This document shows positions 13,884-53,880 of a stretch of 64,000 nt of DNA, piece after piece. A program made the position numbers and the translations under genes. How positions within the stretch are numbered: the stretch's first letter is position 1; each line of letters begins with the position of its first letter. The notes beneath the pieces were generated by a model. The model made no database searches. It was given only the letters and a program-made list of their open reading frames with translations, and was not told where the DNA came from. The DNA is taken from assembly GCA_024734495.1 (NCBI GenBank), contig JALMQS010000326.1, forward strand, positions 1 through 64,000, written 5' to 3'. This stretch comes from Forficula auricularia. Lineage: Eukaryota; Arthropoda; Insecta; Dermaptera; Forficulidae.

Positions 13884-13925
13884 AAACCCTGAAGAAGGAA
13901 AGAAAATTCTCCGAAACGTCGGTTT
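13884..13925 (+). ncRNA. Hammerhead-ribozyme-like motif, most complete copy
   Basis: In order: AAACC (13884-13888), CTGAAGA (13889-13895), a GG...CC stem-loop (13896-13912), GAAAC (13913-13917), GTC (13918-13920) and GGTTT (13921-13925). AAACC and GGTTT pair as helix I. CTGANGA and GAAA are the invariant hammerhead core, and GUC is the preferred cleavage triplet. Helix III would be the two-base-pair minimal form, A-C/G-U, without a loop. One extra A separates the core from stem II, and stem II is imperfect, so activity is uncertain. A CCAATAAATC follows about 30 bases later. Confidence 0.45.
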
Positions 13926-16113
13926 TTGAGTGGGAAAAAATGACTGTCCAATAAATCTATTTTTTTCAAGACCGGGTGTAGAAGTTAAATTTCTATGACA
14001 TCAAAGTAGGGATAGAAATGTTACATTATTTCCTACGGGAGCTAATATACATTATTTCCGTGGGAAATAATTATGTTAATACAAATGAAAAGCAAAATTT
14101 TAAAGTTACTTATTTATTTATATTAATTACAATCATTAAAAGTCATTTTTGGCAGTAAATTTCTTCATTCGCCAGCTCACTAGAGCTCACTTCTTCTTTT
14201 TCACCCAAGTTTCTTGACCTTGCTGTATCATTTATTGGTCAAACTATAATTTAATTTGTATGTGAAAAATTAATGTGTCATTATTTTATTTGAATATTCG
14301 TTTTAAATATGAGGCAGTGAAAAAAATAATATATACACCTCAGTAGAGAATGCTATTTATTTATTTTGAAGCTTCGCCCTCTGGCTTAAAATTGCACCTC
14401 GAGAAAAATAATGCATTTCTCTCCCTTGATGTATAATATACTATTATTCGAGAGAATTTTTTTCATTATCCTCGGGCTGCCTTCCTTCACTTTTCAATTA
14501 ACATTATTTAATATTAAAATTGTTATAATTACAAAAAGAAAACATCAAGGAAAGCTTAATTTATAATTTTTTAATTAAAAAAAAGGAATAAAAATGGCAA
14601 TATCAATGTTTATAATATAACTTTATTAGATAAATTTTAATAAGCTATAAAAATGATACTAAAATAAAAAAGAAGTAAGATATATCAAAAATGCCAAAAT
14701 TTATGATCAAAGTATAGTTTAAAAGGCAACCATCGAATTTCCTCTGTGATATCATGTTGCAATAATTTAACGTAGGTGGTTTTATTTTTACAACAATTTA
14801 TCTGAAGATCGATCGTGGAAGGGACGAGCGGCTACCGGGGGAATGGCTTCGCTTGTTTTCATCTGGCGGAAGTCAATCTCTCCCGTGTGACTTGATTCTG
14901 CTTTTTCATCCCTTAAAAAACCTCCCTTTACTCCCCCATTCTACAGGGATATAAGAAATGAATGGGTTTGTTATTCGCCCATATTCATCTCAACGAGCGG
15001 GTCTAGAATGAAAAGAACAGTTAATTAAAGTGAAAACATGGAAGGATTAAATTCATCTCTTTTAACTCATCCGCCTTTATTAGTAAATATTATGATAATT
15101 ACTAGATTAAAAAAAAATGGAGAATATAAATTACATTATTTTAACGAGTGAAAATAGGAATTTCACTAGCTATTTAAATAATGGAATTCCCTTAACATCT
15201 AATATATTATTATATGTTAAAGCAGTCGTTCTTAACCATTTTAAGCCGTCACCCAAATTAGAGAAATATGTTCATGTCACGACCTAAAGCATAAACTCAT
15301 ATAATTTTTTTTTACCAATTAAGGGGGTTCGTGACTGTTTATCATTTTTATAAGAAAATTCTCAAATTTTTACCATCGAATCATTGATGTATTAAATATT
15401 TATTCCCGAAATTTGAAGTTGATCGTCTGTCTCATTACCGAGAAATAAATTATTGAAAATTGTCCTTTTAACATGGAAGTAAATCGACCGATCTATTAAA
15501 AGGGCTATAACTTCTATACAAATTATACCATTTTCAACAAATTTATATAGATCAATAATTCAACTTTTATAAATTGAATGATACATTTTTAAATAGATTT
15601 GACTGACTAGTTAATTAGTTATTCATAAATGTAAAAACAAAAAGTTATTTGCAGCCAACAGAAAATAATAAAAGCACTAGTGTAGAATTCCATATCTATT
15701 TCTTGAAATAGTTTGTGTTAAATAAATGTTTTTATAATGAGAAAAAATTTATGTCAATATTCTTTTTATTAATATTATCAAAATAAAGATTTGTATTCGA
15801 AATTAACCTCATTATTAACAATTTTTTTTTATTATAAAATTTAGTAGGCAGAAGTTGTCACTTTGCAGAAATACAAAAGATTTTTTCGTAGATCAAGCAG
15901 ATTGAGCTGCTGTCCGGAACCTCCTTAAGATAAACAAAGGAACTTTTCGATCGAAGGAAAATTTTATGAAAAAATAATTTTTTACTTTTAATAGTATTAA
16001 ATTAAATTATTAAAAAGGGCTCGAATATAATGATCTCTCTTCCTTTAGAGCTAGGCATTGATTACCAGGATGCAAATTTCCAGTTCAGACCTGTTTTAGA
16101 GATTAATTTCTTA
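13926..16113. other. AT-rich stretch, mostly unrecognised
   Basis: No credible ORF. At 15225 the sequence CAGTCGTTCTTAACCATTTT resembles the left tip of a hAT element (compare 41650-41698), followed by GTCACGACCTAAAG. No matching right end was found. The rest holds nothing I recognise. Confidence 0.5.
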
Positions 16114-16171
16114 GATTAAAAATTCAGTTTATTGTACAAAGTTTTTTTATTGAAGCTCTTCTTCAATTTTC

Positions 16172-16208
16172 GTACAACGTTTCGTCTCTCTCGAGACCCT
16201 TTCAAGCA
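16172..16208 (-). ncRNA. Hammerhead-like motif, GTAC family, left copy
   Basis: On the minus strand: GTGC, then TTGAAAG (degenerate core), a GTCTC/GAGAC stem, GAAAC, GTT and GTAC. GTGC and GTAC can pair (one G-U) as helix I. The core has lost C3 and G8, so it is probably inactive. Confidence 0.3.
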
Positions 16209-16369
16209 CTCAATTGGTTAGAACAACATTGGTTGAATGTTTATATCTATGACCTGTCAAATACATCTATACTTATATTGTTTTATGGTATCAATCTAGA
16301 AAGAAAAAATTCTACTATGTCTCAGTTATTTTTATCTTTATTTCAACCAATGTTGTTCTAACCAATTGA

Positions 16370-16407
16370 GTACTTGAAAAAGTCTCGAGAGAGACGAAAC
16401 GTTGTAC
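16370..16407 (+). ncRNA. Hammerhead-like motif, GTAC family, right copy
   Basis: GTAC (16370-16373), TTGAAAA, stem-loop GTCTC-GAGA-GAGAC, GAAAC (16396-16400), GTT, GTAC (16404-16407). Stem II is a perfect 5-bp hairpin and the flanking GTAC pair forms helix I. The core is degenerate (TTGAAAA for CTGANGA). Confidence 0.33.
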
Positions 16408-16465
16408 AAAAATTGAAGAAGAGCTTCAATAAAAAAACTTAGTCCAATAAACTGAATTTTTAATC

Positions 16466-17691
16466 TACTAATTATAATGGACATTAATCAACATAATTTA
16501 TTAATTTCTTAATTTCTATTATTCTAGGAACGATCTTTTTTACTTTAAGTAAGAAAATATTAAATTGAAATTATTAATTCACGAAAACTGCAAACAGTCT
16601 ACCGAGTCTTGAAAAAGTTTCACTTTTTCCTCCAATTATTGTAAATTATTTTTTCTAGAGTGAATAAAATATATAGGTATAGGTATTCATCATATCTTCG
16701 TAAAAAGCTATGAAACCTAATAATCATAGTCATACATTATTATACTAATTATATTATTGCATTTTTATGTAGAAATAATTACATAAAAGTTTTTTTTATT
16801 TTCTCAAAAACAGCTCTAACAATTTTTTTTAAATCGGTGTACTTATCAAGTGTCATAAGTTATTAGTCGTGTATAAATTTTAATCCAATTCAAATAAAGG
16901 AAGAGAGTGTAAATTAGGAGTGCTAAAAATAAATATTTTAATCGTTCATATCTCGTCTACGGTAAGTCGCAGAGCTTAAGCTATTTAGAGGCTAGAAGAA
17001 GTACCTCAAGATTTTGGCTAAAATCGAAGAATCGGAAGAATATTCTAACCTTGAAGATTTCTGATATTTTACAATTCGTTTTTTTCGTTTTTTTCAAAAC
17101 GGCTTGGGGGAAATCTAAATTGAACTAATTTGAAAGAAGGAAATTGCTATGGTGATTTCAAATAAGGGAGAATCTAATGTGAAAGTTGTGTGGTGCTCAA
17201 ACCTGTTGATTTCATTTCTTGTTAAGGTCTTTGGTGCTCTCAAAGATTTTTCTCGGTAATGTAGTCAGACATTTGGTGTTAAATTAAATTTTTTTTTCTC
17301 TACAATTATAAAATTTCAAACCAAACCAATGCTTTGAATCAAATGGCTTTTTTTTAAATTGGCATTTTTTATTTTACTATTATTTTGTATTGGCACCAAA
17401 TTTTACTAAAATATCCAGATTAAAATTATTCAATTCTGGCTGCAAATAAAATTCGACCTTTTTTCCTGAATTCAAAGTCTAAATAATATTAATATAATTC
17501 TTTTAAATAAAGCCGGTACTTCATAAGGAATTGTCCATGAAAGTTGTCCGCCTGTATCTATGCAACCAAAAGACGCCTCTGGATCGAACTAGCCTATCAT
17601 ACAGGCGTCCTTGTTAAATGAATGTTTTTTAAAATATTTAAAATTTGACGGCCATCTCCCATTAGCTCATTTTCTAATTAGCAGTGGCAGT
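16466..17691. other. No gene recognised
   Basis: AT-rich, stops in all frames. 17546-17605 has a short inverted pair (CCGCCTGTAT / ATACAGGCG) of unknown meaning. Confidence 0.5.
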
Positions 17692-18998
17692 ACCGGGGGT
17701 GAGTTGGGCGAGCGTCCTACCTGAATTCTTCTCTCCCAACCACTCGCCCAACCTGATAAATTGAGTATTTAAGCCAAAAATGTTGATAAACCGAGTTTAT
17801 ATAATTTTTATAAAAAAAAAATAAAACCGACTTCAAAAAACTTAAATGCAACAAATAAAATAATAATAACTTAAAAATAAAATAAAATCCACTAAAAGGT
17901 ATAAAATAATAATCTTATTTAGTTACAACTAAACGACGAAATATTAACATGAAATTACTTTTTGAATTCAGTGCCAAACAAACTATATCTATAAGCGAGC
18001 GTACCCGCCAAACGTACTAAGTAAGATCCGTCAAGTACCATTCATAAAATGTATATGTTTGGCACCGACTTCAAAAAGTAATTTGATGTTAATATTTCGT
18101 CGTTTAGTTGTAAGTAAATAAGATAATTATTTTATACCTTTTCGTGAATTTTATTTTATTTTTAAGTTATTATTATTTTATTTGTTGCATTTAAGTTTTT
18201 TGAAGTCGGTTTTATTTTTTTGTTATAAACATTATTTTCATTTTTCTCTTTTTAGTGATGTTATTAATAGTGACTTAATATAATACCTTGCATGCATCTC
18301 GTAAGAGAGGCGAATGAATCAGAAAATTATGATAAAATTCAATTCATAAATATAGAAATTCTCTCGAAACGTTTGCGGGTTTTAAATTAATGTTTTAAGA
18401 TTTTTTTATAAAAGATTTTATTTATCATAATTTCGATTATTTGCTCATAAGAATTGGAGATTTACGTTATTTCGTCGTTGATCATATCATCAGAACTTGA
18501 CCAAATTACTATGGCACCATCCCTAAGATACCCCCTTATAAAAAAGAATCATCGAAATAGGTTCATAAACAAAGAAGTTAGGCCTGAACAAACCTGACGA
18601 AAAAGGTCTAATACCAATGAAAAAAACGGAACCAATCGGAAGCTAGACTGAACCCAGTGCAAAAAAAATCATCAAAATTTGTTCACAATTGGCGGAGATA
18701 TGAGGTAACATAGACACACAAAAAAAAAAAATTCAGTCGAATAGAGAACCTCCTCCTTTTTTGAAGTCGGTTAAAAATAAAGAGAAGATAAACCACCGCT
18801 TTCAATATTATAGACTTTATATAATAAAAATATATTAATAATTATACATTTTAAGTACCTTAGTTATCAATAAAAAAAAATATCTAAATTATTCAAAAAT
18901 CTGAAGTATCCGAAATAATCCACATTTTTGCTGCCCACCTAAATAAATTTTTCGCCGTGTGTCGTCCAACCGAAAAGAAAAAGCTGGCACCGCCACTG
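17692..18998. mobile_element. hAT-like composite with CAGTGGC termini
   Basis: Starts CAGTGGCAGTACCGGGGG and ends GCTGGCACCGCCACTG, inverted hAT-type tips. The 8 bases on each side do not match, so target duplication is not shown. Contents: a fragment with TGGGCGAGTGG (minus strand, 17700-17760), related to the SINE at 41165-41285; a foldback (17815-18230); and a repeat (about 18490-18780) ending CCTCCTCCTTTTTTGAAGTC. No transposase seen. Confidence 0.45.
17815..18230. repeat. Foldback repeat with AAAACCGACTTC tips
   Basis: The left arm from AAAACCGACTTCAAAAAA is complementary to the right arm ending TTTTTTGAAGTCGGTTTT, each about 170 bases, with the TAACATGAAATTACTTTTTG / AAAAAGTAATTTGATGTTA blocks inside. 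The same tip recurs at about 18755-18775. Confidence 0.7.
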
Positions 18999-19624
18999 TT
19001 CAAGTACCTAGCAATTATTAATCAGAATTTTAAAGAAAAATGAACATGAACCATATTATAGATTTTAAATAAAGTTATTTTATTAATAGAAATGATAATA
19101 ATTAATAACTGTACAGTGTACAGCGTACATACTAGAAAAAGAAAACTTTAAACATATTTTATACCTCTATTATGTTTGGAGGTTTTCCAATTAACGGCAT
19201 GCGTGTGGTATTTATACCACAATTTTCAATATTTTATTGGAAAATCTTTTCAAATAGTTTTTCCGAACTTTAGAAACAATTTATTGTTCAAATATTTTTC
19301 TAACTATTTATGAAAAATATATTTTCATATATATTGTATATTTTTTCCCCGAAAATATATATTTGATTTTTTTTCCTTTTATCCGAGTGCTTCATCTTCA
19401 TGACATCTTCTCAACTCAGCCTTTGTATTGTAATAAAAAGAAATCCAAGACAAGTCTTTTCAACTTTTTTCCAAACTCTTTTTCTCCCTTTGAACCCCTT
19501 TAATAGGATTATTTATCGTAGTAAATCAGTTTTGTTCATTTTAGAATCCGAAGGCTTAAATATGCCGTAAAAAATAGTTTTTTCTTTAGGAAAATTAAAA
19601 AAAATAATAAAAATAAATTATATT
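18999..19624. other. No gene recognised
   Basis: AT-rich DNA, no ORF or repeat recognised. Confidence 0.5.
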
Positions 19625-19747
19625 ATATATTAAGACTTATAACGAGGTGCTTGAAGCCCAATGAACTGGTTTTCGGTTCAGGAAAAAAATTTGATACCTT
19701 TTTCTTTTGGAAAAATATATATATTCTTTATTATTTCTTTAGATGTT

Positions 19748-19786
19748 GAGACATGTTTCGGTTCGACTCAAAACCATCTTCAGTCT
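19748..19786 (-). ncRNA. Hammerhead-like motif, GAAACATGTC family, left copy
   Basis: Minus strand: CTGAAGA, then a T, a GGTT...AACC stem, GAAAC, AT, GTC. The layout GAAAC-AT-GTC is a minimal helix III followed by a GUC triplet. Helix I pairs over only about two bases. Confidence 0.38.
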
Positions 19787-20696
19787 GCAAATGAAAATAT
19801 AATAATATTTTAATTTATTAGTTTATTTTATTGTATATTGTATTTTATTTTATTGTATATTGAGAATAATACTGATTGAGCTGTTATTAACTTATGTTTT
19901 CTCGCATTAATGAGAGAAGAAATATATAGTACATTTTAAAAGAAAGCACTCAATATGAGTGAATGCAATGTTATATTTGTGAATCAAAACCAAACACATA
20001 TATATTTTATACTTTGCAATTTGCCATTTTATATAAGGAGTTTGACAAGAGACAATCAGATTTCTGATTGATTCTGATGTTTGGTGGGCGAGGTTGGTAT
20101 TGGCAACCTTATTATCAATGAATTTATATATCAATGAGAATTGTTTCGACCGCGCTTATTTGAAAAAGATATTTTTGCTAATGTAGCTAAGTGGATCACA
20201 TCTTTTTTCTCTCTTGGTCCAGACTTAAGACTCCACAGATTTCAATAGCATAATCCGCAGTGGTCTCGTGATAAAATATCTTTTTCAAATAAGCGCGGTC
20301 GAAACAATTCTCATTGATATATAAATTTATTTAAAATCATTATTTCAAGTTAGAAATATATAAGTTCAAATATTATTTTCACTCAATATTTGACAAAAAT
20401 TCTCTACAGTTGATTCGTGATCGAATCAAATGTAGAAAACATTCCGTTTATTATCAATGAATTGTGTTGTATTGAATTTATTGTAACCTCGAAGGACAAT
20501 GTTTTGTTTGCAGTTTTTGTGGAGAGAGATTAGCAAATTTGGAGTTTTTCTTGTATGGGCAATTTGTTTGTCTAGGTGCCATGTGTTTCTCTATTTTGTA
20601 AATTTTATATACATGCTTGAATTTGGGATTACCATTCATTTGAGATGTTTAAGAAATGTTAATATTTGACACCATGTCTACTCACTTTCATTTGCA

Positions 20697-20735
20697 GACT
20701 GAAGATGGTTTTGAGTCGAAACCGAAACATGTCTC
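20697..20735 (+). ncRNA. Hammerhead-like motif, GAAACATGTC family, right copy
   Basis: CTGAAGA (20699-20705), T, GGTTT-loop-AAACC, GAAAC (20724-20728), AT, GTC (20731-20733). Stem II is a perfect 5-bp hairpin; the left copy has a shorter stem in which one A is missing. One extra T separates core and stem II. Confidence 0.4.
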
Positions 20736-20858
20736 AAGATCTAAAGAAATAATAAAGAATATATATATTTTTCCAAAAGAAAAAGGTATAAAAATTTTTT
20801 CCTGAACCGAAAACCAGTTCATTGGGCTTCAAGCATCTCGTTATAAGTCTTAATATAT

Positions 20859-21514
20859 TGATTGCCATTCAAGCATTGAAATCGATTAAAAAATAAATTA
20901 AATTATCCTGAAAATGTGTGTCCCCCTTGAAACTTGAAATGAAACAACATGTTTTTAGAGATGGTTTGATTCGTCCTTCTACAGTCAAACTGCTGGATTT
21001 ACAGTATTCGACTGTTAGCTCAATCATCTAAGTGTTAGATATTTGAATTACAAGCTTAAGTTAGAGCCGAAGATGACCATTTCATTTATTCTTTCTAGGG
21101 CAATAGATTTACAATTAAAAGCATTAGAACAGAGATGGGGCATTAATAACTAAAAAACAAACATTCAAGAACTAACGATAAATTCCCAGATCATTATGTT
21201 TGTATACTTTCAACTTAACAAGTATTTTAGTACTTTTCAGATATATTTCGGACAATCGGCTAGAAAATCCGTTGGGAAATCACTTAAAAATTTTCATTTA
21301 TTTTATTTTTTGCCTATTAGAGTTTATGAACCGTAGAGAAAAATTATTTTCATGCATGATTTTTTTGCCTTGGGTCGATCTCTATTTGGGCGAATTCCAA
21401 TACACACGATAACTTAAGTATGGAAAATAGTAGAGTTCGTCCTGAGGCCAAAATGCTTATATTATCAAAACAAAGGGTTCTGATTAGGTTTTGGACTTTC
21501 TAATCTAACAGCTT
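20859..21514. other. No gene recognised
   Basis: AT-rich; a 70-codon frame at 21200-21412 has no recognisable domain and lies among repeats. Confidence 0.5.
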
Positions 21515-21850
21515 CCATATAAAAGACAAATACCGATATTAGTAGCTTTGTGAAATGACTATACAAATTCAAGAGAAATTGTCTACTACGTAATAGATCT
21601 GAGATGTTATGGATGAATTTTATTATGTCAGAAGGGTGGTTTTATTCCTTCGGAAATCGAACCCGTATGCCAAAATAATGCAATCCGGGTACTTGGCTTG
21701 ACATCCGAGGTGAACTCCATCCGAAACAACCCTTAACCCTTTTGACTTAATAAAAATAATCCATAACATCTCGAATCTGGTAGTAGACTATCTATTTTGA
21801 ATATCTATAGTAATTTCTTAAAGCTACTAATATCGGTTTTTTCTTTTATG
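21515..21850. mobile_element. Palindromic element with a tRNA-like apex
   Basis: The arms (CATATAAAAGACAAATACCG ... and its complement ending at 21850) enclose a tRNA-like segment at 21628-21745, bounded by TATGTCAGAAGGGTGG and its degraded complement. The segment contains GGAAATCGAACCC, an inverted B box. Confidence 0.6.
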
Positions 21851-22257
21851 TTGTTGTTGAAAATAATGGTTGTGATGATTTAAATTAAATTGATTTAATA
21901 ATGATGAGAATGATATTTACTAATGTTAACAACGATTTATACATTTCTGTAGCCGAATAACCGAAGTTAGCCCAATAAAATTTAGACCGAAACGTTTTAC
22001 TCTGGGAATTCTATTGTACCCAGTACATCCCTACTTTGGCTGATAGAACCTTCAACCCACTGAATTTTCTTTTATATTCCAATCACGAATAGTCGTTCCA
22101 TTGTCATTCAACTTTTAAAAATCTTTAAAAATTGAAATTTCGAAATCAAAATTTATGGCTCGGCTGTAGGTTAAGATTTAGAATCAAGCGACAGTGAAAT
22201 TTTTTAATGATGAAGATCGATTATTTAAATAAAAAAATTTTCCCCATGTATTACATA

Positions 22258-22440
22258 TTATATGTCAGATGTGGTTCACCACGGAAGCAAAGCCAAGTGC
22301 CCGGATCGCACTATTTTGGTATTCAGGTTCGATTCCCGAAGGGGTGAAACATCCCTTCTGACATATTAAAAAAAAACACGGATCTAGTAGTAGACCATCT
22401 CTCTTGAATTTCTATAGCAAGAGTTTCCAGTTGAAAAATG
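22258..22440 (+). repeat. tRNA-derived repeat bounded by TATGTCAGA inverted repeats
   Basis: From TATGTCAGATGTGGTTCACC to CATCCCTTCTGACATA. The middle contains CAGGTTCGATTCCCGAAG, an excellent B box, after a tRNA-like region rich in GCC/CCGG. The following 22375-22440 resembles the right arm of the palindrome at 21515-21850, so this is a partial copy of that element. Confidence 0.6.
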
Positions 22441-22895: not shown

Positions 22896-22903
22896 ATAAT
22901 ATA

Positions 22904-23616
22904 CATATGGTGTTCAGTTAAGATATTGGATCATTTGTAATATAATTGTAATTATGGATATGCAAATTTAACTCGACATCTTCTCTATTTTATCTCTTCA
23001 TCGAAAATAATTCCAAAATATTTTATTGAACCCGCCTACGACTCTTACATTTTCAAGCTGACAGCGTCTAATGGTTCGGAGTTTATTCAACTTTGAACTT
23101 GGCATCAAACCATTTGGGATAATCTTGGCTGGCATCTATTTTTCTCCTTTCTCCTGTTCAACTTGAAGCAATTATGAAGATAAAAATATATTCGAGAGGT
23201 TTCAGAATACTCGTATTATTATTATTTGAAACAATTTATAAAGACATTTTCATAACAATTTTTAAAGACATTTTCATATTCTTTAAAGCTTGCTAGTTTA
23301 TTTAATTTAATGTCAATACATTAGAAAATAAACTAGAATAATTCGATAGAACTGTCTGAATGTTTTGTTTTAACGAATTTGATATTGATTTCCAAATATC
23401 AATTTTCTTATTTTTATTTTTATATTCTTTATGCATCTTCTTACAAAGTGAATGAGAACATTTTCGCTGAAGAAATTTATAATCATATCATCATCCATTG
23501 ATTCGAAAACACACATGAAAATGTCGGTAGACGGACGGTCGGAACAAAAGATGTAACTTCGAAGGTTCATAATGGGAATTAAGAACAAGTTTTTTTTGTG
23601 TGATTTTTTTATTTTT
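22904..23616. other. No gene recognised
   Basis: AT-rich; the 72-codon minus-strand frame at 23370-23588 has no recognisable domain. Confidence 0.5.
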
Positions 23617-23658
23617 CAACTAACGTTTCGTCGACTTTGCCGACTTCTTCAGGGTTTC
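23617..23658 (-). ncRNA. Hammerhead-like motif, single copy
   Basis: Minus strand: GAAACC, CTGAAGA, A, GTCG-loop-CGAC (perfect 4 bp), GAAAC, GTT, AGTT. Helix I would start with a mismatch and then pair AAC with GTT. The triplet GUU is a weaker cleavage site than GUC. Confidence 0.38.
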
Positions 23659-23772
23659 AAATAGTTACACCACACATTCGTCTAAAATACATTATTTTTC
23701 TTTATCTACGTTACCAATGAAGAACCATCAGAAACTTAAAAATTCAAAAAATTCGACACATTCATATAAACG

Positions 23773-24315: not shown

Positions 24316-24562
24316 CTTAATCATATTTATTATCGTGAAAAAAGTTTAGATTTTCACAGATCTTCACATTTCAAGATCTTCAGGGACCTAAAAAGTGGTT
24401 TTTTAAAAATATTTGACTATATATAAATTAAAAAAAAAAAACGTTTACCAATTACTTAAAGTAAAGAAAATTTTGAAATATTTTTTAGAAACTTTTTAAA
24501 ATTTAAAATATAAAATACTAGTTAGGTTTCACGTAAATAAAAGATCAGATGCCTGTTTAGCA

Positions 24563-24613
24563 CGATTCTATATATATATATATATTTCGGGGTATAAGCC
24601 CCTCTTCAGGAGA
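24563..24613 (-). ncRNA. Hammerhead-like motif, AUA family, left arm
   Basis: Minus strand: CTGAAGA (24603-24609) joins GGGG-CTTATA-CCCC directly, then GAAA (24585-24588) and an alternating TA run. This has the canonical G-C closing pair and the best stem II in the window. Helix I is worn (ATCTC against GAATC). Confidence 0.42.
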
Positions 24614-24975
24614 TCACAAAGGACACTGAATACAAAAATACAAAAATGTTTTAGAAGTAAATTTCTTAATTTTAACAATAAGGGAAGGGGGAGATAAGGT
24701 GAGAAGGGGAAGGATTTAAGTTCAAAGAAGGTTTTGTTTGTCTAAATTTAAGATTAAAAAAGGAGTGTTTAAAGCTTGGAAAGTACCTGGAATTTCATAC
24801 TATTAAATATCTTTCCAAGCTTCCAAAACCCTTTCTTAATCTTAAATTTAAATAAAAAAATCTCTTGTACTCTAATCCTTCCGTCTCTCATCTTATCTCC
24901 CCTTTCCTTATTGTTAAAATTAAGAAATTTACTTCTAAAACATTTTTGTATTTTTGTATTCAGTGTCCTTTGTGA

Positions 24976-25016
24976 ACTCCTGAAGAGGAGCTATACTTCC
25001 GAAATATATATAGAGT
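24976..25016 (+). ncRNA. Hammerhead-like motif, AUA family, right arm
   Basis: ACTC (24976-24979), CTGAAGA (24980-24986), a GGAG/CTTCC stem-loop (24987-25000), GAAA (25001-25004), TATATA, then ATA and GAGT (25013-25016). ACTC and GAGT pair as helix I. AUA fits the NUH cleavage rule. Helix III would be a short A-U hairpin. There is no extra base between core and stem II. Confidence 0.5.
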
Positions 25017-25282
25017 CGTGCTAAAGAAGCATCTGATCTTTTATTTATGTGAAACCTACCTAGTATTTTATATTTTAAATTTTAAAATGTTTCTAAAATT
25101 TTTTCAAATTTTCTTTAGTTTATTTAAAATGTTTCACCAAGAACCCACACCATTTTCCCTTAACAAAAAAGCTTACCAATTGTTTTGAAATCTTGAATTA
25201 AGAAATTATGTCATGTAATAAATGTAAGAAAAGGTTCCAAAAATTTTAATTATCACGAAGCTACATGATCTACAAACATAAA

Positions 25283-34907: not shown

Positions 34908-35158
34908 TTCTTGGCGAAACATTTTAAAGTAAAGAAAACTTTGAAAATTTTTTGAAACTTTTGTAAAATTTTAAATACTAGGTAGGTTTCACAAAAATAA
35001 GAGATAAGATGCTTGTTTAGCATGACTCTATATACATATATTTCGGAGTATGAGCCCATCTTCAGGAGTTCACAGACGAAACTTTTTATTTTTGTGAAAC
35101 CTACCTAGTATTTTATATTTTAAATTTTAAAAGGTTTCAAAATTTTCTTTATTTCATA
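34908..35158. mobile_element. Palindromic element, AUA hammerhead family, second copy
   Basis: Begins GGTTCTTGGCGAAACATTTT and ends in the complement of its first arm (GTGAAACCTACCTAGTATTT...). The left arm is complete; the right arm lacks the hammerhead segment, as if deleted at about 35080. Confidence 0.65.
35025..35069 (-). ncRNA. Hammerhead-like motif, AUA family
   Basis: Minus strand: ACTC, CTGAAGA, T, GGG...CTCC stem, GAAA, TATATGTATAT (helix III, 4-5 A-U pairs), ATA, GAGT. ACTC/GAGT pairs as helix I. Helix III differs from the 24976 copy yet stays self-complementary. Confidence 0.45.
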
Positions 35159-36589: not shown

Positions 36590-36765
36590 TAGATTTCACA
36601 TAAATAAAACAAATATATGTCATGAGTTTTATCTTGATAAATACTATTTCGGGCTATTGACCTATCTTTAGGAGCAACTAGAAGCAACTGAGCAATCTAC
36701 CTTGGATATTAATTTAATTCAGTTTTATTTCAAATGTTTCACCTAGAACCGACATCTAATTCTTT
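36590..36765 (-). repeat. Diverged member of the AUA hammerhead family
   Basis: AGGTAGATTTCACATAAATA at the left and TTTCACCTAGAACC at the right match the arms at 24441 and 34908. In between, on the minus strand, CTAAAGA, a GG...CC stem and GAAATAG (36640-36675) are a decayed hammerhead-like core. Confidence 0.5.
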
Positions 36766-39647: not shown

Positions 39648-40362
39648 TAAACTGCAACGGATCGTTTCTAAACTTTATCCAAAGTCATTTGAAATATTAA
39701 TATACGTTTATTCCTTTATTATTAATCAGATATCACTTGCTATTTGCAGTCCATGTTGACTTAAATTCAAAAATAATGATCGGCGATTCTCATCTAATAC
39801 TCGAAGAATAACCATTCTATATTGGATTTTTGACGTTTCGGCTATTATTGGTAACCATTGCTGAAGACATGGAGGAATCGACTTAAAATCAAAAATAGCC
39901 ATCGATTCTCATCTAATACTTGAGGACAGGCACGGCGCGGCGGAACGATCTTAGGCCAGGGGTCAAAACTTGGAAAGTGATGTAGGCCTACCGGGGGTTT
40001 GGGGGTATAGAATACGTTAACAAATTCCCATGGGGGACAGGTGACTCCCTGACCCTACGGTTCCGCCGTCCCTGCTTGAGGAATAACAATTCTACATTTT
40101 TTTTTTTACGTTTCGATTATTATTGGAAACCATTGCTGAAGACATGGAGGAATCGGCTTAAAATAAAAAATAACGATCGATTCTTATCTAATACTAGAGT
40201 AATAACTTTATTGAATTCCATTTTTGATGTTTTGACTATTAATGGTAACCTCTAATGAAAACGTAGAACAATCGACTTAAAATTAAAAAGACTGAATTCT
40301 TTTATGGTAAACAACTCAAGCGATTACAATACTTTACCCATACTTCTCGCAGTGGATAAAGT
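39648..40362 (+). mobile_element. Second Helentron-like element with 119-bp satellite
   Basis: Left end TAAACTGCAACGGATCGTTT with ACTTTATCCA as at 10211. The right end is the hairpin ACTTTACCCA-loop-TGGATAAAGT (40331-40362); its stem equals that of the first element while the loop differs. It holds about three forward satellite units, the second interrupted by a hAT MITE. A further partial unit after a second ACTTTATCCA (40592-40710) suggests a tandem or nested copy. Confidence 0.5.
39927..40074. mobile_element. 148-bp hAT-type MITE with perfect 8-bp target duplication
   Basis: CTTGAGGA occurs on both sides (39919-39926, 40075-40082). Removing the insert and one copy restores the satellite unit exactly as at 10460. 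Tips CAGGCACGGCG / CCGCCGTCCCTG are inverted. It is GC-rich against AT-rich surroundings. Confidence 0.85.
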
Positions 40363-44548: not shown

Positions 44549-46180
44549 ATTAGAGGAATAAGGATGAGAAGCTCAAAGGAGAATTACCGGGATTTGCTAT
44601 CCTGTGGAGAATATATTCTATCCTAATGAAAGATTCTTGTCCTTTGTTGGACATTAAATTTATTTTTAATCATTTGATTCTTATGGTGTCGAATCGGAAT
44701 TTTTTTTATTGGGGAAAATCAGATGCTCTAGTTAACGGGGAAGTAAGAGTAGAATAATAAGAATATATTTTTTTAGCACTCATAAAAAGAAGTACCTACA
44801 TTGTATAAAAAATGAATCTTAATGTACAATTAAAAAGAATAACATATTCAAATTTAATAATTTATACAACACCCTTCATTAAGAAAAGATTGTGTGGAGG
44901 GGTGGTCTGACATCACAGGGTCTGTTCATTTTAATTCATATACACATAAACACACACTAAAACCTCCAAAACTAAAGTACATGTATTGTTCTTGTGGAAA
45001 AATAAAAAGTTCACCAGACAAATCTCTGTCACCAGATGCCAGTAAGGATGAATTCACTAATCCATTATTACTTGTAAATATATAACTTAAAGAGTTCTTC
45101 TTATCATGATTTTCGCCAATTGTTGATGAAGTAATTTTTCTTTGGAGTGATATGTGTTAATTAAATTATCATTCTCCATTTTTCATTAAAGTAAAGTAAA
45201 ACTCTCTCACGACACATATTTAATGAATAGATAAGTTATCGAAAAGTGTAGTATTGAAATGGTGTTGTAGTTAGTTTAGTTAATATTCTTTTATTTTTTT
45301 TAATTTTCTTCTAGAATTATGTCAAATTTGCTTATCAATTAAAAAAATCAACTAATACAGGCGAGTAGTAGTTTTCGTTTACTCCCAGTACGCCCAAGTA
45401 CAGTGCAAATGCATTAAGTTGAAAACGATGTTATTTATTTACCTGTATTACACATTTCATATGTAAACTTGTTCTCCAAATAATACAGAGGCAAAACTTG
45501 ACGTGTGAATCCTTTTATATCAATTATTTAGTAATTCACGTGATTTTAAACAACACTTCACATTTATTTTATAATTATCCTAACTTTTAATTTTTTCAAA
45601 AAATTTATAAAAAAAACAACACTTGACCGTTTTTCTCAAAATTATCTATAGGGACAAAACATTGATATATGGGTCCCCATTTTTTTTCATAAATATTCTA
45701 ATATATTTTTGTTCAAAAACCAAAATTATAAAAATCAACATTTTATAGTATTTATTATGAAATAACAAAATAAAAAATTATATATATATATATACACGCA
45801 CTCTTTTCTGGAAAATCATTTATTTTATTGCCCCTTGAAACTATGCAACATTTTATTTCATTTTGAGAACCAATATACATACTTTTCAAAACAAAAAAAA
45901 TGTTTTTTTTAGAATTATTTGAAATAACGGATAATAATTTGAAAATTTAAAGATCCTCCTGAAATTGTGAAGTCGATATTTATGAAAATACTCTAAATGT
46001 TTGCCGGATCCACAGAATCCATGCACTGATCGCCACTGGTAGTAGGTATGTATATATCAAAATACTATGTATATATTGGCATTATTATTACATTTTACAT
46101 GATCCTATAACATATTCACTTCGAAGCTATTATAAAAACTATCAAATATAACGAACTAATTACAGTTAAACACTTACCAT
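44549..46180. other. Mostly unrecognised AT-rich DNA
   Basis: A 63-codon frame (44894-45085) has less biased composition than its surroundings and a CSCG motif. With no splice or homology evidence I do not call it a gene. Confidence 0.4.
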
Positions 46181-46217
46181 GCGCCTTTAAACCCGCAATA
46201 ATAATAATAATAATAAC
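46181..46217 (+). repeat. 3' tip of an I-type LINE with (AAT)n tail
   Basis: GCGCCTTTAAACCCGC followed by (AAT)n equals the 3' end of the full LINE at 60254-60285. This is a severely 5'-truncated copy. Confidence 0.6.
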
Positions 46218-47385
46218 ACTTACCTTTCAAACTTTTAAACAGGAACAAAACGTGTACCAATAACAACCACTCGATATTACAACTTAGGTTGAGGGCTTTA
46301 AGCAAACTATTTCTAATTATAGTTGTCTAACTACCTTTTATTCATTCTTAACAAACATATATAAGCAACATAAATATGTTCGTAAAAGCAAGCATTAATA
46401 GATTTTTTAATAGCTATTAGTGTTGTTTTAATTTTTTTTATTATCATTTTTTTTTGATTAATATTATTTTTAAATGATGGGAATTATTTTCATGGCGTTT
46501 TAGATGCTAGAAATCGAATTTTAATGGTCGCTTTCAAATGCCGTTAATCGTCTTTTGTTCTCCTTGTTGAGCATCACTTGTCTAAAGGTTTTTTGCCCTG
46601 GTCAACTAATCAACGAGGAAACAAGGCGAGTTTCCTCATTCGTCATACATCCTATTCATCTCTAGTTACCCAAGCACAGATGGGGTGAATAAGTTATCTA
46701 TTTATCTAAAATTACCCAGTTAATGTTATTTCTGTTAATGATATTCAAACTAGCAATCCTATCATAAAAAATATTTAATTTAAACAATTGTTTTAACAAT
46801 CTATTAATCAATCTCTTTAATTCGATAACTTTAAAAGGAAAAAGTATCTGGCCCTGAAATGGACTTTAAATCCCATCACAAGCTTGTGGCAGGAAACGAA
46901 TTAAATAAAAAGAAATTAGCCACATTTAATATAAACCACAATCCATCTCAATTAAATTACACAGATCAAGTCATTTTTGGCTAATAGTCGCTCTATTGGA
47001 AGATAAAACTTAAAATCCTTCTTATTTAGGGTTCATAAATGGAGAATAAACGATTGTATCAAATTTTTTCACTATTTTAGTACAAGCCATTTCTTACGCT
47101 GACAGATACAACTATCATCTCTAATTACAATTTTGAGGCATTTACACATTGTTATTTTAATAAAAAAAAATCATTCATTTAATGCATCGGCGGCCTAGTT
47201 TCTTGTACCACTTGCACCCCCGGATGGACGGCCCTGGAGCAATATGTTTTTCAAGTTTTAATTTATGTGGAGTAATTCCCGAAAAATTACGTAAAATATT
47301 AGTAAATCTCTATTTTTTTACTTTCACTAACCCATATATAGAATATATAGTAAAAGGAAGGAGGTATTGTGATCGACCATAAATT
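46218..47385. other. No gene recognised
   Basis: AT-rich, unrecognised. 47185-47245 is GC-richer (CGGCGGCCTAG, CGGATGGACGGCCCTGG) and may be a hAT fragment. Confidence 0.4.
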
Positions 47386-47620
47386 CGAATTCAAGTTTTC
47401 AAGGGAAATTAACGTTTTAAGGCTCCCTGAGTCCGAAAAAGTCGGTTTCTCATAATGTTCAGTGTGTGTGTACCTATGTGTGCGGTCACTATAACTCAAG
47501 AACGAAAAATCGTGGGAAATTAAAATTTTAAATTTAACGTAGGTACCAGCCGTATATGTGACATCAAGGTTTTGGATAAAATCGACTTTTCGAAAGTGGA
47601 AATTTCGTTCTGGTACATGT
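47386..47620 (+). repeat. Dispersed repeat, family shared with 54290-54490
   Basis: GTCCGAAAA-GTCGGTTTC, TTCAGTGTGTGTG and ATAACTCAAGAACGAA recur with the same order at 54369-54450 (GTCCGAAAACATCGGTTTCC ... AGCTCAAGAGCGAACGA). Family unknown. Confidence 0.55.
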
Positions 47621-48983
47621 TTTTAAGATTTTCTAGAAAATGCCCGTAACGATTTTGATAAAACTTGCTGGAATTATGTAAAAATAGATGGTCTTTAATA
47701 TGGATGTGCTTCCCCGGAGAAAAATTGGTTCGAGCCTCATAAATGGTGATTTTCCAAAATGGGCCCCTTTACTGGTTACATAAGAAATAATAAATAAGAC
47801 TAGATTGTAAGTGAAGATCGTGTGGCGCATACTATAGTTTTGTAAACCCAAATTTATTGTTTAAAGTAGAGAGAAACACAATAAGATTTATTTAAAGCGA
47901 ATATATTTGTACCAAAGATTCAAAGCCGTTTCTGCAAAAAATTAAATAAATAAATAAAACGAGAAAACAAAGCTAACCTAATTCTAATTTTTTTTCCTGA
48001 GAAAAAATAAAAAGTTGAAAGCCTTCTTACTGTTGAAGCGTAAAAGACGCCTCATAGCTGTTTTTTGGAATCTAATTCAGAACTTTTAAAACTTCTAAGA
48101 CTCTCGACTCCAGGGAATATTTGTATACGAGTAAACTCACCTTAATGACAACCACATTTCTTGCTTTTAATGTCAATTTGAAATGAAATACAATGGAATT
48201 GTTAATGCAGGCAACTTAATGATGAGTTGAATTGTTAAATTTTACTTGCTCTTGCAAATTCTTAAGAAATCTTGGACATGACCTTGAGGAAATCTGGTTG
48301 CGATTTGCTGATATAAATAATTGGGTAAGTCCGATTATGGGTTCTTCCGTAAGTTGCCTTAGTATGGTTCTCAGATTTGATTTAATAACTATTATAATAA
48401 TTTAAAGGAGACAATAAAAGAGTATGTCTTCTTCTGGAAAAATACATTTTTTAATAATAATAGTAAATTATTGAAGCTGAGGCTAACTATTGCAATTAAC
48501 TTGACACACTAAATCGTACTTGTAAAACATCACGTTTTCTTAAAGTTCCTAAGTAAAAATCCACTCTGGTGATACAAGGTGCGAGTGATCCTCTAATGAT
48601 TCGACCCATGCAGTGATGACACAGAATAAACCAAGCCAAGGACAGAATCTATTATTATTATTGATCGATTTAGATGTTATACGTATATCTAACAGTTATG
48701 TTTCATTTAGTTTGTTTGATTTTATTGTTTTTAATCCTCAAATTACAAAAAATATTAGATTTCTTCCAGTATGGCAGTTCCCGAAGATTTTTTCAATCTC
48801 GGGAATTGGAATTGAAAGTTCGTAAAATCCCAGGATTTCTCGGTAAATTTTATTTAAATATCAAACATTTGATAATATAAGCAAAATTTAATTATTTTTA
48901 TTGAAAAAATAAAAAACTCTCTAGAAAAAAATGCATATTTTTTTTAATGAAAACATTATACAAAAATAAATTCAATTAAACAG
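47621..48983. other. No gene recognised
   Basis: AT-rich; the two overlapping frames at 48613-48880 show no domain. Confidence 0.5.
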
Positions 48984-49255
48984 AGAAAGTTAAATAATAT
49001 AATCAATAATTTCTTATGTTGATTCTACATATTTAGAAAATTATTTTATTACTTTTTTGAAAAGGAAAAATGAATTGAACACGCGGGAGGACTTGAACCC
49101 CGTTCTTTCTTATAGCCGAAGAGCTATAGCCTTACCAACTAGGCCAAGGGTGTCCCGCCAGGAATTTTTCCTTTTCAAAAAATAATAAAATAATTTTCTA
49201 AATATGTAGAATTAGAATTAGAATAAGAAATTATTGATTATATTATTTAACTTTC
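48984..49255. mobile_element. Palindromic element with a tRNA-like apex
   Basis: The arms (GAGAAAGTTAAATAATATAA... and its complement to 49255) are about 90 bases each and enclose a tRNA-like sequence. Confidence 0.75.
49080..49160 (-). repeat. tRNA-like sequence at palindrome apex
   Basis: The minus strand reads GGCGGGACACCC, A box TTGGCCTAGTTGGTAAGGC, a potential anticodon hairpin GCTATAGC-TCTTC-GGCTATA, and B box GGGGTTCAAGTCCTCCC. Its anticodon arm is irregular and the acceptor ends (GCGGGAC/...CCCGCG) pair imperfectly, so a SINE-type derivative is likelier than a working tRNA. Confidence 0.5.
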
Positions 49256-49629
49256 GTTGTTCATTTGTCTTAAATAACGAAATAAAACTAATGTTTAAAA
49301 CTTAATTTGTCTAAAAAAATAAATTTATTTTTTAAGTACAATAAATAAATATTTTATTTATACGTCATGTTGATTTTTAAAAAACAGGATATTAACAGAA
49401 TAATGTTCAGATAGATCAATTCTTTTTTTGTGACGATTGTAACAGAAAGTGAAAAAAAACGCTTATTGATTCAGTCGATGTTCTAGTGTCTACCTAGTTT
49501 CCAGTCAACAAATCCCGTATTTCGTCTCTTTAAATACTCTTGTATTACAATCGATAAAAATATTGTAGGAATTAATACTTTATTTTCAATGAAAATCAAA
49601 AATTTAGACCACAGAAGGGGACACTTTAT

Positions 49630-49845
49630 ATACATTTCAGTTTTTTCAAGGGTGTCAAAGTTAAATTTTTTCGGTTAGTGTATATCTAAACGTAAGTAAG
49701 AGATAAAAATGAATAATAAATAAATTTTTACCTTCTCACTTTGTTTTTTGTGTAGTTAAGCCAAATGTCTTGATTTAATTATTTATTTATTAAATTTCGC
49801 GGCGCACCTGTGAAGAGGCCGCGGCACACAGTTTGGGAACCTCTG
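49630..49845. mobile_element. hAT MITE, degraded left end
   Basis: Ends GGCCGCGGCACACAGTTTGG-GAACCTCTG and shares AAGAGATAAAAATGAATAA-type inner sequence with the complete copy at 52288-52525. Confidence 0.6.
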
Positions 49846-50722
49846 CCATAGAGAATAACGATCGCTGGGCTTTTACATTTTTTTATAATTTTACTTTCAG
49901 TGCAGTAGAATTAAAAAAAATGCTATCCACATATTGGAAAATCGTCATTCTGTCAGCAAAGGTTTCACCTGAATAAAAATTTACCCATCAGAAATATAAC
50001 TTCTTGTACTATTATATATTATAATAATATAATATGACAATAACAAAATTTAATATTGAAATATTTCATATTTTGAAGCAACTGATGGAGTTTTTTTTTC
50101 AGTTTATAAATGAAAAAGATAAATAACAGAATAAAATGGCCTACATATTTACTAAATTCATCTGATCATTTGCTATATTTTTTCTCTTAGTAACACAAGG
50201 GAAAAAATCATCAACATTGATAATCTCATCTCTGATTCAAAATTCTTTTTCCGAATAATTTTGCATCTTAAATGATTCTTGACGTTTAAATTAAAGCAAA
50301 TTGAGACATATTTGTTAAAATATTCACCAATAGTGAAATTTCATTATTGTCTTTTCGCTGGAAAATATGATCTCCCTTTGTTCTTTGAAAGGCTTTTGAA
50401 GAACAAAATGCCATCTAATAAATCATTTAAGCTGTCCGACGAAATTTGCTATGAAAATACTAGGAAAATATATATAATAGTGACCGAATAGCCTTAGCGA
50501 AAAGATTAAAAAGGCTTGACTTTGCAAAATAATTGGTTACATGAATGAAATAGCGCGTTGTCATATATCTAATGAAATTGAACGATAATTCATTTGAAGA
50601 GAAAGGAAGTTTGACAAGCTTCCATTCATCGCTTTCAAATGGATTTTTCTAATTAATAAAATTAGTCTTTGGAGATGAAAAACAGTTCAAACAAATAAAA
50701 CATTTCTACTTTTATTTATATA
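49846..50722. other. No gene recognised
   Basis: AT-rich; the 70-codon frame at 50279-50491 shows no known motif. Confidence 0.5.
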
Positions 50723-51315
50723 CTAGCTGGAAGGCCCGCCTTCGGCGGCCCACTTGCTAGCCAAGGAGCTCGCCCCCTCCCCCCGAACCCCATTCTCCCT
50801 CAGAAACCCACCCAGCACTCCCACCTACACCTCCACTCCAATGTACAGACAAAACCTTAATTTTATATACAATACACAGGCAGGCACAAATGCCTTTTAG
50901 TAGTATGTAATATAGGTAGGTACAGATACATTGAGAAATGCCCTTTAGTACCTCTGGACCCCCACATCCCTGACTCCCTACGCCCTGGACCCCACCTTCA
51001 AACCCCCGCCTCTATACCCCAACCCCACCCCCTGGGGGAGGGACAAACATAGTTATATATACAGGCACATATACCCTTTAGTTGCCCCCTGGATATAGGT
51101 ACAAACACAGAAAGAAATACCCTTTAGTACCTGCCAACCACCCACCCCTGGACCCCACCTCCCATCCTCTGATGGGGGGCATAGGTACATAGGTAGGTAC
51201 ATAGGTAGGTACAGAGGCAGGCACAAATGCGCTTTAGTAGTATAGAATATGTATATAATTGGTAAATGCCAATATTGCGATAGGTTAACAAATACAGTAG
51301 AAATACACATTTTGG
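50723..51315 (-). mobile_element. Helitron 3' end with C-rich repeats
   Basis: On the minus strand it ends in the strong hairpin GGGCCGCCGAAGGCGGGCC, six bases, then CTAG before T, as at 25283. The body is unusually C-rich on the plus strand, with degenerate repeats of CAGGCACAAATGC(C/G)(T/C)TTTAGTA (50880, 51224) and ACCCTTTAGT (50941, 51069, 51120). The 5' end is unknown. Confidence 0.5.
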
Positions 51316-51529
51316 ACTCCCCTATAAATGTGATTGTATTAGCGATAATTAAAAAATAATAAATTCAAGATCAATAAAATTTAAATTAAGTACTTTAGGT
51401 ATCGACTGAAAATGACTCAGCAAGTTTGATATTGGAATTATGACTTTGTTTCAAGTGTTTTTAAAAATTTACCCATTAAGGTTCTTTGTCAATTACCAAA
51501 TAATTGTATAGCATTTAATGTATATACCT

Positions 51530-51675
51530 AACTGCAGTTGCTATGGTTACTTATAAAGTTCCTCCCAAATTTAGCATTTTACAGAAAGAAGCCTAACCAT
51601 TCTTACTTAAATCAAGGTCAAATGAGCTATATTAAATAGAACAAATAAATAAATTTTAATGAATTTAAGGAAGTA
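51530..51675 (+). repeat. Repeat shared with the tail of the first Helentron-like element
   Basis: GCAGTTGCTATGGTTACTTA, CCTCCCAAATTT, AGAAGCCTA(A/T)CCATTCTTA and AAATGAGCTATATTAAA follow as at 11555-11680. Confidence 0.7.
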
Positions 51676-52287
51676 ACGATTACTTTCTTTTGATTTTCAT
51701 GGTTTTAAAGATCTTGGTGGCGTTCTATTACTTACAAGTAGCGTTTGTAATTTTTATGGGAAGGATACAAGCTTAAACTATTTACAATCCCTTGCGAAAA
51801 AGACTGTTTAGGGAATTAGTGTTTGGGCAACCCTTGAATGTCTTGAATAACTGAATAATGATAATAATAATAATAATAATAACTCTCATTATGAAAAAGT
51901 TCACATTTATTTAGATTCTATACTGAAAATCCATTTGTATTATATGTATATTCAAATTTAAAGATTTTATTTTCAAATGGACCAGTTTTCACAGTAGGCT
52001 TAGGTTTTTGATCAGAATAGATAGAATTGATATAGTCTATTAAGTTTTGTTATGGTTAATAAGTTTTAGTATACCTAATATATAACAGAAATCAGCTTTA
52101 ATTTGTTTTCGACTAAAACTTGTCAGGACTTGTCTTTTTAATCCTAGATAACAAGAAGGGAGGAGATACGAGGATTCTTCTATCCGCGACCTTTTTATCT
52201 AAAAGATTCTTAATTATATAATAAATATAAATACACAGGTCTGCGAAATTTAGCTTTTGAAAAGTAATTCCAAATGATGAGTTAGAT
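51676..52287. other. No gene recognised; (AAT)n run
   Basis: An (AAT)n run lies at about 51855-51882. Otherwise unrecognised. Confidence 0.5.
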
Positions 52288-52525
52288 CAGGGGTTCCCAA
52301 ACTTTTCCGAGTCGCGGCGCTCTTTTTCATTTAAAATTTTTACATGGCGCCCCACCCTAATTAAAATTATGTCAAATCTTAAGAAAGAGATAAAAATAAA
52401 TAAATTTTTATCTTCTAAATTTTTTTCTAAATAGGTCTTGCTTCAATTAATTATGAACCTTCGCGGCGCACATGAGAAGAGGCCGAGGATCCCGGGGCGC
52501 CGCGGCGCACAGTTTGGAACCTCTG
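52288..52525. mobile_element. 238-bp hAT MITE
   Basis: Tips CAGGGGTTCCCAAACTTTTC / CACAGTTTGGAACCTCTG are inverted and typical of hAT. Flanks AGTTAGAT (52280-52287) and AGTTAATT (52526-52533) match 6 of 8. Confidence 0.75.
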
Positions 52526-53439
52526 AGTTAATTTATTTGTTTTCAAATTATGTAAATTCATGAATAAAAATATTTTAATACAAGTAATTAAAAACCATTT
52601 TAAAAACAAAGATAATTACTTTAAAGGTAATCTCTAAAATGAAATTTATTAATGTGGAAATTATCTCATAATTGTATTTCAATTAGCTAGATAATATACC
52701 TATCTGCCAAGTAGAAAATTGGAATTAAATTACGGAAGTTATTTTAAATGCATTAGGCATGACAGATAATTAAGTTAAAGGAAAAATAATATTTTTATTA
52801 AACTCTCCTTTTTAAAATTTCTATAAATGACCAAAAAATCAAATAACATATAAAGAAAACTAAAAAGAAAATTAAATATGAAACTTAAACTTAGCTCATT
52901 GAAAAATAGATAAATTTTATTTTTAATTTAACTTTAGGAAGTACTCCTTTACTTAAGGAGGTTGTTTTTCATAATTTTCTAAAAAAAAAAACAAAAAAAC
53001 TATAGATATTTATTTAGTTTGGAGATCTGTTACTAAAGGTATATATTCTTGGATTATAAGATTTTTCCCGAAATGAAAACTCTGTAAACAAAAACAACCA
53101 CAAAAGTAGAATTAACTAAAGCCTGTTAAACAGGTTTAATGCATTTATATTCAAATGAATAAACTTTAATGAAAATAAAACAAGTTTCAACGGTCTAATT
53201 TTATCATCTAGCTCAATAGACTATAAAACAGGAGACTTTACTTAATCCCATTTGAATATTTAAATTATATTAAAAATTTCTAAATTCAAATAATAACTAA
53301 AATTACGTATTATTTTTGGACACAAAGGGAGAAAACTTTGTCATTTTATATATTAATATGGTACATGATAATATATACCTACATGTCATTTTAGCTGAAA
53401 AATCTCTTTATCGAATTAATCTTAGAATTTTATAATTAA
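52526..53439. other. No gene recognised
   Basis: AT-rich, unrecognised. Confidence 0.5.
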
Positions 53440-53669
53440 CCCTGGAGCGCTAACCGGGGTAGAGCTCTAACCCAGCCTTGCTCGAAACTTCTGTTATTTT
53501 TCGACAAAGTGCAGCAAAAAATTCTGGTTCCTGATAATCTCTTATTTTCCCACTTCAGTTGATTTTCTACAATGGTTGCAGCGACACGTATTTTACTTTG
53601 ATATAAAATCTCTGTTTGGGGTGCAGGTGTGCCCCTGGGTAGCATTAGTATTTTTGTTAATGGACAATG

Positions 53670-53880
53670 TTGTAGGTTCTTGGTGAAACATATTTTAATA
53701 AAGACAAGAGAATTTAAAAAAATTTAAAAAATATAAAATTCTACTTTTCTCTTTGAACTCCTGTAGATGGGCTCGTACACCGAAATAAATATAGAGTCAT
53801 GCTAATAAGCATCTTGTCTTTTATTTTTGTGAAACCTGCCTAGAATTTTATATTTAAAATTTTTTTTTACTTTATTAGTG
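53670..53880 (+). repeat. AUA hammerhead-family repeat nested in the piggyBac element
   Basis: GGTTCTTGGTGAAACATATT at the left and GTGAAACCTGCCTAGAATTT at the right match 34908-35158. Confidence 0.65.
53757..53797 (+). ncRNA. Hammerhead-like motif, AUA family, mutated core
   Basis: ACTC, CTGTAGA, TGG...CACC stem, GAAA, TAAAT, ATA, GAGT. Helix I is kept, but A6 of the core has become T, which should abolish cleavage. Confidence 0.35.

Follow-up and report, generated by a model that had tools for sequence, protein, structure and literature searches.

What are the short motifs, built in the order CTGAAGA, stem-loop and GAAA, that recur in a 64-kb stretch of the Forficula auricularia genome? 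This whole stretch, called the window below, is AT-rich and belongs to a genome of 1.06 Gb. The recurrence of the hammerhead-like motifs in the window is confirmed, and, judging from their sequences, they are very probably minimal type I hammerheads, i.e., putative ribozymes, of Penelope-like elements (PLEs). PLE hammerheads have already been described in animals, and this genome is a new, rich set of them. The Penelope-type reading, put forward in a preliminary description of the window, is supported by the covariation of helices I and II, the self-complementary helix III, the linkage to frames with reverse transcriptase (RT) and GIY-YIG domains and an insertion anatomy of the PLE type; a retrozyme origin, named there as an alternative, gained no support here.

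Eleven places were examined. The ordered CTGAAGA, stem-loop and GAAA, and with them the CUGANGA...GAA core of a type I hammerhead, were found at seven of them: 13889 (+), 19783 (-), 20699 (+), 23652 (-), 24609 (-), 24980 (+) and 35065 (-). The preliminary description had given the minus-strand sites about 6 bases away (19777, 23646, 24603 and 35059 for 19783, 23652, 24609 and 35065), the sites themselves being present. At the remaining four the core is broken or altered, in agreement with their description as degraded: it reads CTGTAGA at 53761, a single core-base change, and CTAAAGA, TTGAAAG and TTGAAAA in the relics at 36640, 16172 and 16370, respectively. Stem II, GAAACGTTG and the GTGC/GTAC...GTAC flank pairing are retained at 16172 and 16370, and an intact-core version of this family was not found in the genome under one strict pattern.

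The pattern CTGANGA N6-30 GAAA has 13 matches in the window (12 distinct cores, not every one of them a hammerhead) versus 3.7 expected, and 13 was reached by none of 100 shuffles. A strict descriptor, which combines helix I, stem II, a self-complementary helix III (wobble permitted) and a non-G cleavage position, recovered three sites (13889, 24980 and 35065), whereas 100 simulated sequences averaged 0.14 and had 2 at most. Using a covariance model built on 19 hand-picked units, eight window sites were recognised at E<0.01; the training omitted 23652, 24609, 19783 and 53761, and relatives of each were included. The features of the window that belong to these motifs are as follows (families are designated by letters, and E-values refer to the covariance model).

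12872..12920, minus strand: family A 3'-tail-like sequence (CAATTAAAATTTCTAC...) borne by the other arm of the 13889 element, by-eye comparison with family A tails; no hammerhead was seen on this tailed arm.
12993..13848, no strand: palindrome upstream of the 13889 motif, a head-to-head remnant, with 84% self-complementarity over 13126-13815.
13881..13928, plus strand: minimal type I hammerhead motif of an A-like family; AAACC/GGTTT, CTGAAGA, extra A, stem II, GAA, ACGT, C17; E 3.2e-9, in training set.
16112..16467, no strand: fold-back element carrying the relics 16172 and 16370.
16172..16209, minus strand: hammerhead relic with core TTGAAAG; stem II GTCTC/GAGAC, GAAACGTTG and helix I kept; no match at E<=1.
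16370..16407, plus strand: hammerhead relic with core TTGAAAA, head-to-head partner of 16172; weak score, E 0.1.
19742..19791, minus strand: hammerhead-like, M family; stem II GGTT/AACC, ACATGT, helix I GA/TC of 2 bp; E 7.9e-6, untrained, partner 20699 trained.
20691..20741, plus strand: hammerhead-like, M family, head-to-head partner of 19783; E 5.9e-7, in training set; the inverted arms of this pair, 19625-19796 and 20686-20858, are 97% identical.
23612..23660, minus strand: hammerhead-like, D family (relatives in loci L007 and L017); GTCG/CGAC, ACGT, core-adjacent helix I pair lost (C-A); E 1.3e-10, untrained, relative trained.
24457..25122, no strand: head-to-head fold-back carrying 24609 and 24980, 84% self-complementary.
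24571..24617, minus strand: hammerhead-like, H family; GGGG/CCCC, an (AT) run in the helix III region, helix I damaged; E 2.1e-6, untrained, relatives trained.
24972..25020, plus strand: putative hammerhead, H family; ACTC/GAGT, GGAG/TTCC without extra base, helix III ATATATAT, A17; E 1.4e-4, in training set.
35021..35073, minus strand: putative hammerhead, H family; ACTC/GAGT, helix III ATATATGTATAT (self-pairing needs G-U), A17; E 3.1e-7, in training set.
36641..36679, minus strand: strongly degraded H-like relic (CTAAAGA ... CCCGAAATAG); no match at E<=1.
53753..53799, plus strand: H family motif with CTGTAGA core and with CTC and GAGT flanks, like the rest of the family; E 0.0055, untrained, relatives trained.

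In the clearest copy, 13889, the parts follow each other as AAACC, CTGAAGA, A, stem II, GAA, ACGT, C and GGTTT, where AAACC and GGTTT form helix I and the C is what we take to be the base at the cleavage position (position 17 in hammerhead numbering). The ACGT is self-complementary and leaves no room for a loop, so that helix III would be possible only with a second copy. This palindrome differs by family, being ACGT, ACATGT or ATATATAT, and ACTATAGT outside the window's sites, and is then followed by a non-G base, which would suit a dimer of two ribozymes; its length varies between families from 4 to 10 or more bases, and it is kept in most units. The H family (24980, 35065) combines the ACTC/GAGT helix I with an AT-rich palindrome followed by A, and the M family (19783, 20699) has ACATGT and just two pairs in helix I. 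The length of helix I is 2 bp in the K, M and N units and 4 bp in the best of the G and H units. A trade-off between the two helices was noticed on few families: a longer palindrome accompanies a 2-bp helix I in K and M, and a 4-base palindrome accompanies a helix I of 4-6 bp in A, B and D, but N (4-base palindrome, 2-bp helix I) and H (8 bases, 4 bp) do not follow it. The extra base between the core and stem II, previously counted against the motif, recurs in most families and is thus a family trait rather than a defect of single copies. Under a looser parse there are 116 distinct units, 68 with a 4-bp stem II and 48 with none under that parse; palindromic helix III is present in 106 of the 116, a count biased by the 60 three-kb loci (L001-L030, L062-L091) that were fetched with patterns fixing part of the motif.

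The observation that stem II sequences differ whereas the pairing persists was borne out by covariation analysis of two alignments, hand-picked to represent families. In the first one (A1, 19 units from ten or more families), 95.7% of 92 stem II cells are paired, and the covariation score was 0.899 versus 0.188 in shuffles (standard deviation 0.049; 0 of 500 as high), with slid structures giving 0.304 or less. In the second one (A2, 11 ACGT-type units), helix I is paired in 88.6% of cells, a count that omits the K, H, G and M units, whose helix III differs in length, and helices I and II together scored 0.842 versus 0.225 in shuffles (standard deviation 0.050) and at most 0.228 in slid structures. 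The distance from the shuffles is inflated by related rows; the slid controls preserve relatedness, but they are biased towards a structure that was read off the sequences being scored. A permutation test on 10 families, each represented by a single hand-entered unit, gave 35 of 40 pairs in helix I and 40 of 40 in stem II, and no permutation was as high.

The linkage to PLE genes was found in loci chosen by protein and not by RNA motif, namely the 30 best of 150 scored GIY-YIG (PF01541) matches, from 3,423 candidates. The PLE protein of locus L061 was matched by 27 of the 30, and a same-strand hammerhead-like motif is present in 25, all within the 27, the nearest one 305-799 bp downstream of GIY-YIG. 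A palindromic helix III, with the A...U closing pair, and then a non-G base at position 17 were found in 33 of 34 motif units of these loci versus 131 of 890 control core-less CGAAA sites; since most of the 34 units are near-identical and come from three families, they do not represent 34 independent events. L061 itself contains three motifs 2,909 bp apart, alternating with frames of 858, 858 and 427 amino acids (aa) in repeats that are 99.6% identical, and the tested 858-aa frame matches RVT_1 (E 1.6e-16) and GIY-YIG (E 8e-6). The types beside coding PLEs are K, K-like and N. One more motif family (CTGAAGA, GATAT/ATGTC, ACGT, C) was noted at 843 (+) in L055, near a K-type PLE.

The arrangement of copies also points to PLEs. 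Among the matches listed, 100 from each of two pattern searches, the pairs of neighbours no more than 1 kb apart comprise 24 head-to-head, 1 tail-to-tail and 4 tandem cases; in the window, the head-to-head fold-back arms are 16172/16370, 19783/20699 and 24609/24980. Tails and target duplications were established for family A loci elsewhere in the genome. A tail is situated on exactly one arm in 7 head-to-head loci and is 45 nt long in 6 of 6 measured. The flanks of 6 loci carry duplications of 10, 12, 12, 13, 14 and 14 bp, whereas 30 cross-locus pairings averaged 4.0 bp and never exceeded 9; L008, without a measurable tail end, was left out of this count. The loci L004, L010, L011, L012, L015, L016, L046 and L074 are not simple pairs in this respect, and the overlapping L011 and L012 together show two tailed arms and one bare arm. 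Tandem units, head-to-head inverted pseudo-LTRs (LTR, long terminal repeat), a one-arm tail and target duplications, all expected of PLEs, are thus present.

Genome-wide, the ACGT-type pattern CCTGAAGANG N8-24 CGAAACGTYG has 12,031 + 11,687 = 23,718 matches and the H-type pattern 707 + 739 = 1,446 matches, while both reversed patterns have 0. With only G and C/T counted, position 17 of the ACGT type is G in 113 matches versus 23,718 with C or T. In 24 H-type units bearing the exact 8-base palindrome, this position is A in 11, C in 9, T in 3 and G in 1.

A number of results weigh against the assignment of these motifs to PLE hammerheads. The copies at 23652, 24609, 36640, 16172, 16370 and 53761 are all damaged. 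Most window copies are worn, so that their activity is doubtful, except perhaps for 13889, 24980 and 35065, in which the helices are kept. The structure tested for covariation came from the very sequences that were scored, and double-change pairs in stem II number 4 versus 3.4 in shuffles, with 263 of 500 shuffles as high. The K and N types, the ones tied to PLE genes, have a helix I of only 2 bp. No motif was found in 5 of the 30 best GIY-YIG loci, and two of the five, L032 and L049, match the PLE protein. A tblastn search with one PLE protein revealed no such protein in the window, nor was a PLE protein match obtained in the 60 motif-pattern-fetched loci; the link of the A-like, D, H and M families to PLEs therefore consists in motif, tail, duplication or arrangement, not in a coding copy.

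Contrary to the hammerhead reading, too, the Rfam hammerhead models, a search of which had been proposed as a check in the preliminary description, gave no match in the window either above gathering threshold or at E<=10. Of the first 30 fetched loci, 17 with intact-looking copies were compared with these models and gave no hammerhead match at E<=10 either, which indicates that the variant lies outside the models and that the check is blind to it. A search of the genome with RF00163 yielded 0 matches, but carries no information, since control genomes likewise yielded none. Rfam microRNA-family matches lie on long palindromes, below cut-offs, and were taken as artefacts. As regards function, PMC11167929 states for the hammerhead of PAc, a Poseidon PLE of Anolis carolinensis, that cleavage required added protein, that mutants still inserted and that none of the RNA reads had an end at the cut site; earlier self-cleavage of PLE hammerheads at 3-25 mM magnesium is mentioned in the same paper.

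Among other explanations, the one that survives best, while being very unlikely in our opinion, is an assignment of the motifs to non-LTR retrozymes; these are small tandem repeats that encode no protein, contain canonical type I hammerheads and are propagated as circular RNA. Metazoan retrozymes do carry type I hammerheads, alongside PLEs (PMC7229834), and close direct repeats occur among the 2 x 100 matches listed (C4:1022703/1022820/1022940 and C9:2371534/2371748/2372176). However, the copies among these matches are mostly single or head-to-head, with just the 4 tandem neighbours mentioned; helix III is here a loop-less palindrome in most units, in contrast to the stable helix III of invertebrate retrozyme ribozymes; and the K and N motifs adjoin GIY-YIG genes. 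Among these matches there was no tandem array of 150-400 bp repeats in which every unit has a canonical type I hammerhead, canonical motifs having been sought via Rfam only.

Highly improbable is the view that the copies are DNA transposons, i.e., miniature inverted-repeat transposable elements (MITEs) or fold-back elements, in whose inverted repeats a hammerhead-like string is incidental and has no RNA function. The position of window copies in inverted repeats, the target duplications of 10-14 bp and the lack of PLE protein matches in the window and the 60 motif-fetched loci would agree with it. It is disfavoured by the cross-family covariation of helix I and stem II, by the helix III palindrome that precedes a non-G base, by the motif within tandem coding PLE units, by copies that are single as well as paired, and by the one-arm tail and the variable duplication length; moreover, head-to-head inverted repeats are known for PLEs themselves (PMC3846280). 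An explanation by chance and by the conserved sequence of a single repeat family, with no RNA structure, has a practically negligible probability: the ACGT-type families share much sequence, so their similarity is partly due to descent, and plain conservation would likewise give the G count of 113 versus 23,718 at position 17, but the number of matches in the window, larger than in shuffles and simulations, the covariation above shuffles and slid controls, the four kinds of helix III palindrome and the variable position 17 of H-type units contradict it.

For PLE hammerheads, dimer formation, cleavage and a place in the life cycle of the element may be inferred as follows. In an intact-looking tandem element, one motif is situated between copies of the RT/GIY-YIG frame. 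Two motifs would meet in a two-copy transcript, or when two transcripts come together, and would pair with each other through the palindromic strands of helix III, while each motif would supply its own helix I and stem II. Each RNA would then be cut at the non-G position 17, which precedes the helix I 3' strand, and the cutting would yield unit-length RNAs for the enzyme of the element. We suggest only tentatively, considering it possible but rather doubtful, that the PLE hammerheads have diversified here into several dimer classes, with the palindrome as a family-specific handshake limiting pairing and cutting to sister RNAs.

Minimal type I hammerheads of PLEs were reportedly treated by Cervera & de la Pena (2014) and by Lunse et al. 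(2017). No prior report of a family-varying palindromic helix III was found in the literature searched, which did not include these two papers; the family-specific palindromes may be new, but could be in print already.

In many animal genomes, PLEs carry thousands of minimal type I hammerheads lacking helix III, which may act as dimers (PMC7761336, PMC6155905), and their role is called a mystery in a review (PMC7761336). In a coral, more than 6,000 type I motifs of 16 families, mostly minimal, were reported (PMC7229834). The motifs considered here share with the known ones the minimal type I structure without a proper helix III, the location in PLE pseudo-LTRs, the dispersal in thousands of copies and possible cleavage as dimers (PMC7761336), and differ from them in a helix III that varies by family (ACGT, ACATGT, ACTATAGT, ATATATAT and longer) and is self-complementary in most units. 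With PAc they have in common a single RT and GIY-YIG frame and tandem copies, as well as the hammerhead at the junction of pseudo-LTR and open reading frame and an optional tail, of 30-40 bp in PAc, where it was explained by two reverse transcription starts (PMC11167929); they differ in their sequence and in the 45-nt tail of family A. Adineta vaga Penelope resembles them in head-to-head inverted pseudo-LTRs, palindromes, a one-arm tail and partial tandem units; it has a 31-bp tail on one inverted arm, frames of 830-842 aa, target duplications of 8-10 bp and a low copy number, in contrast to the many thousands of motif copies here (PMC3846280). The main text of that paper never uses the word "ribozyme". 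Animal non-LTR retrozymes likewise have type I hammerheads in non-coding mobile elements, but as short tandem repeats with canonical ribozymes, whereas the motifs here are minimal and, among the matches listed, mostly single or head-to-head (PMC7229834).

The Forficula auricularia genome joins tandem coding units of 99.6% identity, many thousands of motif copies and differing helix III palindromes, and is a good setting to test whether helix III dimerisation is selected. It is also shown that the Rfam hammerhead models miss this variant of the motif.

Some other repeats were noticed. A separate one, CTGATGA/CTGAAGA ... ACGAAATAACG, occurs at 18470-18493 (-) in the window, at 2967 (-) in L003 and at 2157 (-) in L033; it has no palindromic helix III and so is probably not a hammerhead. 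An array of 118/119-bp units at 10337-11547, tried as a retrozyme, was rejected, no CTGANGA being found before CCGAAACGTC on that strand in the units read. This satellite forms opposite blocks (10337-10578 and 10673-11547), with a further copy near 39831; one strand bears CCGAAACGTC-like and TCTTCAG-like strings, which resemble pieces of a hammerhead without an ordered core. Direct repeats of about 3.6 kb (1-3583 and 5970-9550), 99.55% identical, surround a 2.4-kb stretch with a glutamine-rich frame of 526 aa (3647-5227) that has no Pfam match; the pair with its interior may represent a non-autonomous LTR element whose LTRs are very long. A long interspersed nuclear element (LINE) is situated at 54864-59857; besides a frame resembling an endonuclease, it has RT (E 3.9e-38) and RNase H (E 4.4e-9), all distributed over several frames.

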